The notes below the pieces were generated by a model. It saw only the letters and a program-made list of their open reading frames with translations. It was not told where the DNA came from and ran no database searches. The translations under genes and the position numbers were made by a program. DNA of 47,745 nt. It comes from Bacillota bacterium. Its GTDB lineage: Bacteria > Bacillota_I > Bacilli_A > Izemoplasmatales > Hujiaoplasmataceae. Shown here one piece after another: positions 1 through 4,277 of this stretch (its first letter is position 1; every line of letters begins with the position of its first letter). Location: assembly GCA_029559915.1 (NCBI GenBank), contig JAKPZU010000313.1:1-47745 (forward strand), in the 5' to 3' direction.

Positions 1-101
1 TTTCACGTGTCACAGACATAATATCAAATGACGATATGAGGAAGACAAAATTCATGGATATCGCTACAATACCTGTTACAGAGGTTGTGGGGATAAAATA
101 A
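1..101 (+). CDS. 3' end of a probable tandem copy of the HTH-cyclase gene (partial)
   Basis: The reading frame is open from the window edge and stops with TAA at 99-101. Its last 33 codons match the last 33 codons of the cyclase gene at 383-1948 base for base, and identity runs four bases past the stop (1-105 versus 1848-1952) before the sequences diverge. The simplest reading is a second cyclase gene immediately upstream whose body lies outside the window. A contig edge placed at a repeat during assembly would look the same. No catalytic residues fall in the visible part. Confidence 0.55.
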   Translation, partial: SRVTDIISNDDMRKTKFMDIATIPVTEVVGIK

Positions 102-224
102 AATATTATTATTTTTTAAAATAAATTATTAATATTACATACAATATTTCAACTTATTAAACCAATAAAATGTAACATCGCAATATTATAGATAATAATA
201 TATGATGATATCATATATTTCTTT

Positions 225-367
225 ACTGTCTAACTGTCTATATTATACTGTCTAATTATATTACTTACTGTCTAACAATATAATAATAAATTATACAATA
301 ACGTATTTTTTTCTTGACAAATAATTTAATCTGTATAATTATAATTACAGATCAACATACTGTCTAA
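225..367 (+). repeat. Iterated ACTGTCTAA motif upstream of the cyclase gene
   Basis: Full ACTGTCTAA copies lie at 225-233, 247-255, 267-275 and 359-367, with an eight-base copy at 233-240. Each full copy is preceded by TA, and the copies at 247 and 359 share the longer word ACTGTCTAATTAT. Three copies start 22 and 20 bases apart, about two helical turns, as expected for operators read from one DNA face. The last copy lies just before the ribosome binding site. The cyclase carries an N-terminal HTH, so it could bind these sites itself; that is inference. Confidence 0.7.
314..345 (+). promoter_or_regulatory. Candidate sigma-70-type promoter of the cyclase gene
   Basis: A perfect TTGACA lies at 314-319. 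Two overlapping TATAAT words follow at 334-339 and 340-345, giving spacers of 14 or 20 bases, so neither pairing is ideal. The start codon is at 383, after GAGGAG at 371-376. The ACTGTCTAA copies flank this element on both sides, which suggests regulated initiation. Confidence 0.4.
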
Positions 368-382
368 TTATGAGGAGTTTAT

Positions 383-1948
383 ATGAAGATATTAGATGAA
401 AAATATCAGGGATGGATAAGCAGTAAGGATGTGATGGATTCCTGCAATATCTCAAGGGCAACCCTCAATAATTATATAAAATTGGGAATTATACAAAAAC
501 CTGTTGTCCTCAAACCTGGGAAAGGTATGGAAGGCACAAAAAAAATAGGCTATTTCCCTCCAAATGTTCTTGATCGTATTGCTACATTTAAAAAGCTAAA
601 ACAAGAAGGCAATTCAGTATCAAGTATTGTAAAAAAATTAAAAGAAAAAAAATCACAGAAAGAAACGAAGGCAGATACTGTCACAGAAACAAACAAAGAG
701 ACTGCTACTGTATTAGAATTAGATACTGCAAAGATTGAAAAAATTCAAAAAGGTATTGATGAGCATAAGGTAACACTTGGTGTTGAAGACATTCAGACGC
801 CGGCTTATCTTATTAATCACAAATTTGAAATAGAGTGGATTAATAAAGCAGCAGAAGAACAGATTTTCAGAAGGGATGTAAAAAATATCAGAAACGCTGA
901 GTCAAGAAACATTTTTAAACTGTTTTTTAACTGGGAATTCAGTAGTGGTATCCAGAATTGGCAAAGCATCATTGATTTCCATATGTCATTTGTAAAATCA
1001 AAAAATCCTCGTGAATATATCGAAAAGATATACACAGATATAAACACCAGTGAAATTAAACTTTTAGAGGAGTCATACGACAAAGTCTCGCCTGTGCCAA
1101 GGGAACTGATAAGGGAGAGCAGCGTTAATATAATTAAAAGCGATGGTACAAGCGAATCATATCGTGTATACACTTCTTTTTTCAGAGAAGGTCTTCTATT
1201 TGTTTATGTTCCCTCCAACAGCTACATACAAGAAATTACACAATTTTTATCAGGCCGTGAAAATGTTATCAAGGATTTGCTCCAGAGACGTTTGCCAAGC
1301 ATGGTATCTTTTTGTGTATTGTTTGCTGATTTGCAGGATTCTGTGCGCATATGTGCTGAACTGCCACCCGAAGAATACTTCGAGTTGATTAATCAGATGT
1401 GGAAGACAATGGAAACAACGTTTAGAAAATATTACGGTATATACGGAAAACATGCCGGTGATGGTATTGTATATTATTTTTTGAAGGAGCAGAATTCAAA
1501 CTACCTTATCAATTCGATATACTGTGCAATGGAAATAAAAGAAAAAATGAAAATAATATCAGCAGAATGGAAGGCAAGAAAAAAATGGTACAATGAATTG
1601 TATTTAAACATAGGTATAAATGAAGGTATGGAATACTTCAGTACAGTTAATGCATCGACAAGCATGGAATTTACAGCTTTAGGTGATACAATTAATTATG
1701 CCGGAAGACTCTCAGACCTTGCAAGATATGGTTCAATCTTGACTACAAAAAACCTCGTAAACAATCTGAATGATGAGAGTCGCAGAAAATTGCTTTTTGG
1801 TGTAAGGAAAAAGATGGATGACCATGAAATATTCGTTGAGAATGTGTTTTCACGTGTCACAGACATAATATCAAATGACGATATGAGGAAGACAAAATTC
1901 ATGGATATCGCTACAATACCTGTTACAGAGGTTGTGGGGATAAAATAA
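383..1948 (+). CDS. HTH-PAS-class III adenylate/guanylate cyclase fusion
   Basis: The 521-residue protein combines three parts. Residues 10-41 form a MerR-like helix-turn-helix with a second helical segment at 59-86. Residues 137-280 look PAS-like. The C-terminal third (305-475) is a class III nucleotide cyclase. Visible catalytic features are metal aspartates D316 and D360 (AGDG), K356 before the second one, T431 at the base-recognition position, and transition-state residues N438 and R442 in a GDTINYAGRL stretch. Lys plus Thr is typical of adenylate-specific class IIIb enzymes, so cAMP is the likely product. There is no signal peptide or membrane segment, so it should be cytosolic. The start is set by GAGGAG seven bases upstream. 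The coupling of DNA binding to cyclase activity and the sensed signal are unknown. Its 3' end is duplicated at the window edge. Confidence 0.85.
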   Translation: MKILDEKYQGWISSKDVMDSCNISRATLNNYIKLGIIQKPVVLKPGKGMEGTKKIGYFPPNVLDRIATFKKLKQEGNSVSSIVKKLKEKKSQKETKADTVTETNKETATVLELDTAKIEKIQKGIDEHKVTLGVEDIQTPAYLINHKFEIEWINKAAEEQIFRRDVKNIRNAESRNIFKLFFNWEFSSGIQNWQSIIDFHMSFVKSKNPREYIEKIYTDINTSEIKLLEESYDKVSPVPRELIRESSVNIIKSDGTSESYRVYTSFFREGLLFVYVPSNSYIQEITQFLSGRENVIKDLLQRRLPSMVSFCVLFADLQDSVRICAELPPEEYFELINQMWKTMETTFRKYYGIYGKHAGDGIVYYFLKEQNSNYLINSIYCAMEIKEKMKIISAEWKARKKWYNELYLNIGINEGMEYFSTVNASTSMEFTALGDTINYAGRLSDLARYGSILTTKNLVNNLNDESRRKLLFGVRKKMDDHEIFVENVFSRVTDIISNDDMRKTKFMDIATIPVTEVVGIK

Positions 1949-2962: not shown

Positions 2963-2972
2963 CGTAACCAAT

Positions 2973-3046
2973 GCCCCCGTAGCTCAGGCGGATAGAGCGA
3001 CGGTTTCCTAAACCGCAGGCCGCATGTTCGAGTCATGCCGGGGGCA
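2973..3046 (+). tRNA. tRNA-Arg (anticodon CCU)
   Basis: The 74-base cloverleaf has a seven-pair acceptor stem (GCCCCCG with CGGGGGC), a GCTC/GAGC D stem, an anticodon loop TTCCTAA giving CCU, and a five-pair T stem GCATG/CATGC around TTCGAGT. The outermost anticodon-stem pair (A-C) is mismatched. The discriminator base is A and no CCA is encoded, so maturation needs a CCA-adding enzyme. The last 14 bases overlap, on the opposite strand, the end of the pcnB-type gene. A T-rich stretch follows. Confidence 0.93.
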
Positions 3047-4277
3047 TTCTTTTTTGCTTCAAAAATTGATCCCACCATTTCAAATGATCGTTTTTTCCAT
3101 TTTTAGTTTCTGTTTTTAAACGCAGATATAAGATTGCATCAGGAAAGACCGGCTTGTCGATTATTGAATGAGGATGTCTATGCGGTACTGTACGAAATGA
3201 TTGTTGTAAAGAAAGAATGTTATGAACTGTATTACTGATGCGTTTTGGCAATGTCACAGTTTTACAAATGTTTTTTAATGTATCCTTGCAAACATTTTCC
3301 AATGCCTGTTTATATGGTACATTGTTTTTGTGTTTTACTAACGCATCAGCTTCAATGAAAGGACCTAAAAAAAATGTTAAAAAAAGTTCAATGGATAGGG
3401 TTTTTCCATCTTTATATAATTTATCCAAATAATCAAGATTGTTATAAATTAGACTCATATTTTTCCTGCTTAGACTTATCCACCGTAATATGTCTGGGAA
3501 TAGGGCAGATAACAAACCGCTTTTTATAAAGAGATGGAAAACCTTTTTAGAGAATCCAAATAAAAAAAGTTTTTGAATCTCTTCATAAAGTCTTGCCGGT
3601 GAAACATTTGATATAGTGTAAGACAGATTGCAAATGGCTTCCCAAACAATATTTTCTATAACAAAATTATGAGATGCTGAAAAACGAATTGCACGAAGCA
3701 TCCTTACAGGATCCTCTTTAAACCTTGTATAAGGGTCTCGTATAGTTCGAATTAGTCTTTGGTTGAGATCAATGATTCCATCGCAATAGTCAACTATAGA
3801 GAAATCGGCAATATTGTAGGCAAGGGCATTGATTGTAAAATCTCGACTGAGCGCATCTTCCTCAGGCGTACCAAAAAGATTATCACGAAGAATCATCCCG
3901 TTTTCATCTTTTATATGGTAACGTTTTTCTTTATTGTTATCAGATATTTCTCCGATTGTTGTTTGGTGAGGATTGATTGTACTGCGGAACGTTGAAACTT
4001 CTATTATTTCATCTTTAAAGTGTATGTGGGCAAGCCTGAAGCGACGGCCAACAAGTCGACAATTACGAAAAAGCCTTTTAATTTGTCCTGGAGTTGCGTT
4101 TGTAGCAATATCGAAATCTTTTGATTTACGCCCAAGCAGAATATCGCGCACACACCCCCCAACTAAATATGCAATAAAACCTCTTCGATGAAGATGATAC
4201 AGGATATACAAGGCATTTGGGCTTATTTGTTTTCTCGAGATGCAATGTTCTTTTCTTGGGATAATTTTAGGTTCCAT
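3033..4277 (-). CDS. pcnB: Poly(A) polymerase / CCA-adding class II nucleotidyltransferase
   Basis: The 414-residue protein has the class II nucleotidyltransferase head: LVGGCVRDILLG at 38-49 and the metal-binding pair D54/D56 in KDFDIAT. It then shows VGRRFRLAHIHF at 76-87, the form typical of bacterial poly(A) polymerase I rather than of CCA-adding enzymes. Later come the RDFTINALAYN and EDPVRMLRAIRFSA helices. PcnB adds 3' poly(A) tails that steer RNA decay; some family members add CCA instead, and sequence alone does not fully separate the two. The gene is last in a leftward cluster, 20 bases after the NTPase-CYTH gene. Its stop codon and last codons lie inside the tRNA-Arg gene on the other strand. 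Confidence 0.85.
   Translation of the reverse strand: MEPKIIPRKEHCISRKQISPNALYILYHLHRRGFIAYLVGGCVRDILLGRKSKDFDIATNATPGQIKRLFRNCRLVGRRFRLAHIHFKDEIIEVSTFRSTINPHQTTIGEISDNNKEKRYHIKDENGMILRDNLFGTPEEDALSRDFTINALAYNIADFSIVDYCDGIIDLNQRLIRTIRDPYTRFKEDPVRMLRAIRFSASHNFVIENIVWEAICNLSYTISNVSPARLYEEIQKLFLFGFSKKVFHLFIKSGLLSALFPDILRWISLSRKNMSLIYNNLDYLDKLYKDGKTLSIELFLTFFLGPFIEADALVKHKNNVPYKQALENVCKDTLKNICKTVTLPKRISNTVHNILSLQQSFRTVPHRHPHSIIDKPVFPDAILYLRLKTETKNGKNDHLKWWDQFLKQKRMPPA

Follow-up and report, generated by a model that had tools for sequence, protein, structure and literature searches.

Our analysis identified a gene that probably encodes a ligand-sensing one-component regulator fused to an adenylyl cyclase and that, judging from its sequence and those of its relatives, would be subject to negative autoregulation through an array of operators around its own promoter. 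This gene (383-1948, plus strand) lies close to one end of the window, the 47,745-nucleotide stretch of DNA analyzed here, which corresponds to positions 1-47745 of contig C238 of the MAG G000. One-component autoregulators are already known; what appears to be new is the presence of a MerR HTH, an MltR-type sensor and a class III cyclase in one chain. Our literature search, which most subscription papers lay outside, found no MerR-cyclase or MLTR-cyclase chain and no description of its operator.

Operator array and its conservation

The 9-mer ACTGTCTAA occurs exactly four times in the window (225-233, 247-255, 267-275, and 359-367), with steps of 22 and 20 bp between the copies starting at 225, 247, and 267, and ACTGTCTAT, an 8/9 match at 233-241, overlaps the first copy. 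This arrangement agrees with an earlier note on this DNA, which had described four full copies and one eight-base copy around the promoter, with steps of 20-22 bases among three of them. The copies also exceed what is expected by chance: 0.26 copies are expected in the whole window, with at least four reached in 0 of 100 shuffles, and shuffling of the 278 intergenic bases at 105-382 gave a mean of 0.0044 copies and a maximum of 1 (5000 shuffles). Another copy, the degenerate TTAATCTGTATAA (326-338), is absent from the list of the earlier note and lies over a -10-like TATAAT. All copies in the window share the same orientation and flank a TTGACA hexamer ahead of the 521-codon gene, in an AT-rich upstream spacer (17% G+C). 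The features of this region are the following (matches are to the 13-bp consensus described below, and distances are relative to TTGACA):

1-105, plus strand: 3' end of another copy of the regulator-cyclase gene, identical to 1848-1952 and cut by the contig start
221-233, plus strand: operator copy CTTTACTGTCTAA, 11/13 matches to TTAkACwGTmTAA; core kept in L062 and L063 at -87
233-241, plus strand: overlapping 8/9 copy ACTGTCTAT
243-255, plus strand: operator copy TTATACTGTCTAA, 13/13; the sole perfect palindromic-consensus site in G000
263-275, plus strand: operator copy ACTTACTGTCTAA, 10/13 with a perfect right half; at -45, likewise in L062 and L063
314-319, plus strand: TTGACA, -35 hexamer, found in nearly all orthologous promoters and used as alignment anchor
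326-338, plus strand: operator copy TTAATCTGTATAA, 11/13, overlapping TATAAT; positions +18 to +21 are occupied in most orthologues
334-339 and 340-345, plus strand: two TATAAT hexamers (spacers of 14 and 20), either of which may be the true -10
355-367, plus strand: operator copy ACATACTGTCTAA, 11/13, between promoter and ribosome-binding site
372-377, plus strand: GAGGAG, probable ribosome-binding site from sequence
383-1948, plus strand: gene of 521 aa, with HTH (about 13-90), disordered linker (about 90-130), PAS sensor (about 134-278), and cyclase (about 305-520)

To this gene we compared 20-odd cyclase-bearing relatives (30-81% identity), comprising three public records and about twenty full-length sequences among relatives of G061, together with a set of cyclase-free relatives. 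When all upstream regions are considered together, the bases to the left of the 9-mer read TTAk, so that ACTGTCTAA represents one side of the 13-bp palindrome TTAkACwGTmTAA, whose left arm carries T at -3 in 55 of the 59 half-site matches (perfect palindromes enter this count on both strands). Of the five window copies, four are imperfect palindromes. Because the underlying unit is palindromic, a symmetric dimer is a likelier binder than a protein recognizing direct repeats.

Sites with at least 12 of 13 matches were found in 21 of the 23 upstream regions of the cyclase-bearing set, against a shuffled mean of 0.13. As the consensus had been drawn from these same 23 upstreams, it was fixed and applied to 15 loci found later, where 38 sites with at least 11 of 13 matches are spread over 14 of the 15 upstreams; shuffled sequences gave a mean of 0.77 sites. 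Most of the 38 lie at -13 to -16 or at +19 to +21 of TTGACA. In the layout common to the orthologous promoters, one site is centered about 15 bp ahead of TTGACA, and a second, covering the -10, is centered 18-21 bp past the first base of this hexamer. The window and its closest relatives, L062 and L063 (80% protein identity), keep the second of these sites and have upstream sites at -45 and -87; a site at -65 is present in the window and, in degenerate form, in L062, and all three have one more site at +47 or +48. In an alignment of the three upstreams, the five site cores are identical at 37 of 40 positions, whereas outside the cores the figure is 52 of 109 (Fisher P = 2e-7). Two distant cyclase forms, L141 and L081, have no such operators upstream. 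In L073 (G082), the recognition helix reads ITMPTLNYYI instead of ISRATLNNYI and the promoter operators have decayed, a pattern compatible with coevolution between the protein and its site. Absence of the array at orthologous loci, which the earlier note had named as an observation that would speak against its reading, was not what we encountered, sites being present at almost every orthologous promoter. That the array merely represents chance or low-complexity repeats has an almost negligible probability: the AT-rich spacer close to a contig end would favor such an origin, and the shuffles, the conservation across species, and the held-out loci oppose it.

The earlier note had also called the array phased. 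This description is weak: in the window, the sites at -65, -45, and +18 follow the one at -87 by 22, 42, and 105 bp, or about 2.1, 4.0, and 10.0 turns, but the site at +47 is off phase. Over the non-redundant distances of all orthologues, a 10.5-bp period was not significant (P about 0.14), and helical phasing was dropped as a general feature. The only spacing recurring across orthologues is a pair 32-34 bp apart, at about -15/+18.

A predicted MerR-like regulator ending in a cyclase

The N-terminal HTH domain proposed in the earlier note was recovered and is MerR-like. MerR_1 was detected in 14 of 23 family members at E <= 0.01 and above the cut-off in L079 and L013, and the window protein alone scored 14.1 bits, below the Pfam cut-off of 21.6. 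The best solved-structure match of this domain is 4ua1, and its core, ISRATLNNYI, is nearly invariant in the family. In the structural model of the full-length protein (mean pLDDT 78.5), the HTH is followed by a helix (79-95) and a low-confidence linker to the sensor (90-129). The cyclase gene of L080 (G069:C95, about 256105-257645) either contains a sequencing error or is interrupted between HTH and sensor by a frame change. As in the MerR family (e.g., MerR, PDB 4ua1), there is a winged HTH with palindromic operators and a site that lies over the promoter hexamers or between them; unlike in that family, there is no clear MerR-type coiled-coil dimerization domain, its place being taken by the PAS sensor and the cyclase, and there are several operators, each a short 13-bp palindrome, with a spacer of mostly 14-17 bp.

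The sensor is related to that of the MltR/MmyB-like regulators (PF17765; PDB 3pxp; PMC3406030). MLTR_LBD (PF17765) was detected in 8 of 23 members (best E 1.6e-7), with no match in a profile scan of the window protein itself; fold matches of the modeled sensor include MltR 3pxp, and its residues P140, A141, N154, and N176 correspond to the conserved P110, A111, N124, and N149 of MltR (PMC3406030). Both kinds of protein are thus one-component regulators with an N-terminal HTH, a PAS-related ligand-binding domain, and the P-A-N-N residues. MltR, however, has an HTH of the Xre type and lacks a cyclase, whereas here the HTH is of the MerR type and a class III cyclase forms the C-terminus of many members. 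The Xre-type HTH that marks MmyB/MltR regulators is therefore lacking, and the sensor is shared but not the membership. MltR 3pxp was crystallized with a fatty acid modeled as myristate, a co-purified ligand of uncertain relevance (PMC3406030). An acyl or fatty-acid-type ligand is weakly to moderately suggested for the sensor described here.

The cyclase domain scored 43.8 bits against PF00211 (cut-off 21.9) and is closest to the class IIIb adenylyl cyclases CyaB (3r5g) and CyaC (1wc1), with fold matches to both. It shares with them the catalytic fold and six residues, including Thr in place of Asp, all kept in the window protein: D316 and D360 (metal Asp), K356 and T431 (adenine), and N438 and R442 (transition state). 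As the earlier note had anticipated, the product is thus predicted to be a cAMP-producing enzyme, with moderate to strong confidence. CyaB and CyaC are, unlike the protein described here, not fused to a DNA-binding domain. All six residues are also present in 16 of 21 other full-length rows; L062 and L065b are changed only at the catalytic Thr, and L075, L051, and L081 have degenerate catalytic residues, as if their cyclase domains had been retained for a non-enzymatic role. Class III cyclases joined to a DNA-binding HTH in one chain have been described in Mycobacterium tuberculosis, namely the Mclx proteins Rv0386, Rv1358, and Rv2488c (PMC4452763). In these the cyclase is N-terminal, an ATPase lies in between, and a LuxR HTH is C-terminal, and no operator array for them was encountered in PMC4452763.

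Proposed autoregulation and competing readings of the operators

A search of the genomes for ACTGTCTAA clusters, which the earlier note had proposed for the rest of the window's own genome, located sites almost nowhere beyond the promoters of regulator genes. The 22 genomes searched contain 22 perfect palindromes, 17 of them at or near the regulator gene's own promoter: 16 within the promoter (two on contigs broken there) and one about 500 bp upstream, in G132. The remaining five lie elsewhere: in the region of an Mrp antiporter operon (L084), inside pilC-like and rsmI-like genes, near miaA/PBP, and in G070:C194. At L084 (around 1450-1515; G132:C60), TTAGACAGGGTTAATCCTGTCTAA and a perfect TTAGACAGTATAA are located between Mrp-antiporter-type genes and possibly represent a second target in G132. 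Elsewhere in the genomes, ACTGTCTAA is found as lone copies, mostly in coding sequence. Genes with this HTH number one or two per genome. As perfect sites are nearly confined to the regulator gene and such HTH genes are so few, a dedicated autoregulator is suggested rather than a global one; a genome-wide regulon was discarded, given the few perfect sites outside. The autoregulation through the repeat that the earlier note had put forward therefore gains from the recurrence of the sites at orthologous promoters, and these comparisons strongly suggest that the operators are bound by the protein's own HTH.

For the direction of control, repression rather than activation is moderately indicated, because the promoter has a perfect -35 and its -10 is covered by an operator. 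The position of the -10 is less certain, as in several of the cyclase-form promoters (spacers were listed for 13) the operator-embedded TATAAn is only 14-15 bp from TTGACA. Positive autoregulation of the MerR type, in which a dimer at 326-338 would occupy a 20-bp spacer separating TTGACA from the -10 and untwist the promoter when ligand is bound, is unlikely but keeps an appreciable chance. The HTH is of the MerR type, the 20-bp spacer leads to TATAAT (340-345) in the window and to TATAAA in L063, and on this spacing the operator falls between both hexamers; an operator within a 19-20 bp spacer is, however, possible in the window and L063 but not in most orthologues. Many of these have their best -10 inside the operator, at a spacer of 14-17, and nothing good at 20; the operators of cyclase-free forms are often centered at +21, which would place TATAAn at a spacer of 17; and additional operators outside the spacer are foreign to the classical MerR layout.

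We give only a slight chance to a reading in which the MerR-like domains line up head to tail on genuine direct repeats, as in BldC, which has a MerR-like DNA-binding domain and repeated sites at its targets (PMC5859096). The single orientation of the window copies would fit, since BldC binds direct repeats (PMC5859096), but BldC sites are asymmetric, whereas here TTAk precedes ACwGT across orthologues and the site is palindromic, and the direct-repeat reading was dropped once this became apparent. Copy spacing is also variable and mostly much longer than the 9-bp repeat of BldC, and PAS and cyclase domains normally dimerize, unlike the 68-residue BldC. A small, lone MerR-like domain with direct repeats, as in the BldC family, is thus not what is found in a 521 aa multidomain protein with palindromic sites. 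There is likewise a small probability that the operators belong to another regulator, such as a cAMP receptor feeding back on cyclase expression. CRP feedback on cyclase genes is known in general and provides a precedent, and CRP-type cNMP-binding proteins are present in the genomes checked. The sites, however, also precede cyclase-free forms, are nearly confined to the regulator gene, unlike those of a global CRP, do not resemble TGTGA-N6-TCACA, and have decayed where the HTH of the regulator itself changed (L073).

Under negative autoregulation, dimers of the regulator would bind the 13-bp palindrome, one over the -10 and another just upstream of the -35, the latter replaced in the window's branch by three copies further upstream, and one more dimer would sit ahead of the ribosome-binding site. 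Together, the bound dimers would shut off a near-consensus sigma-70 promoter. A ligand in the PAS domain, perhaps of the acyl or fatty-acid type, would alter DNA binding and/or cyclase activity, cAMP output would be tied to the regulator's own copy number, and cAMP could act via CRP-type proteins. More tentatively, and with doubts prevailing, these proteins could be DNA-bound second-messenger switches, in which a MerR-MLTR module is anchored at its own promoter by a multi-site operator, essentially without other targets, and the real output is the fused cyclase (in the cyclase-free branch, an adjacent PilZ-type protein); binding would then mainly set enzyme copy number and perhaps gate cyclase dimerization on DNA. 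This appears to be a case of a transcription factor controlling mainly the amount of a second-messenger enzyme. With the operator defined as TTAkACwGTmTAA and exemplified by nearly 40 natural promoters, a cAMP pathway from deltaproteobacterial lineages that are uncultivated becomes open to direct testing in a laboratory host.

Cyclase-free forms, gene neighbors, and origin of the contig

A second set of genomes encodes a form of 265-280 aa that ends before the cyclase. This form (L013 and its kin) keeps the same operators, which places these with the HTH-sensor module and not with the cyclase. In a quick tree of uncertain rooting, the short forms cluster with one another and are separated from the cyclase forms. 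In most loci with readable downstream sequence, the cyclase-free form is followed by the same gene, which in L013 (5881-7986), the only copy scanned, has a PilZ domain; matching genes lie downstream in L123, L124, L126, L127, L131, L132, L134, L138, and L139. It is possible that its product is a c-di-GMP partner of the same sensor.

The cyclase forms are usually located 3' of etfB-etfA-fixC-fixX (fixABCX, ETF; gene names by sequence inspection). This cluster precedes the regulator in L063, L064, L065, L067, L069-L073, L075, and L080 (partly read in some), and L070 has a second fixABCX set downstream of the regulator. Considering these neighbors and the sensor type, an acyl or electron-transfer-related signal is plausible, and the recurrent neighborhood suggests a tie between electron-transfer-flavoprotein metabolism and cAMP. 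CRP-type cNMP-binding proteins, found in all six genomes checked, are possible receivers of the cAMP.

Among 60 relatives of the window's MAG, we found no orthologue of the regulator-cyclase gene and one weak cyclase-only match. The neighboring CCA-transferase-like gene is 61% identical to those of G061 and G065, versus 35-42% in the MAG relatives checked, and a separate copy (35%) is present in the MAG itself, at C84. Therefore, on sequence grounds, the window contig probably entered its MAG as a contaminant from the G061/G065 lineage, which would explain the absence of orthologues in those 60 relatives. The public orthologue records are titled as Proteobacteria and deltaproteobacteria MAGs, two of them with names that refer to lake sediment. 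Of the tandem copy mentioned in the earlier note, the window contains only the final 105 bases, its upstream lying beyond the contig start. The 105-base identity between 1-105 and 1848-1952 could reflect a second gene copy that was cut off or a tandem repeat at which the assembly broke, and the G065 contig likewise ends 49 bases past its gene copy. In the window, the cyclase gene is followed by a gene for an amino-acid-type solute-binding protein (PF00497; 2080-2913) and a tRNA-Arg (CCT) gene (2972-3047).
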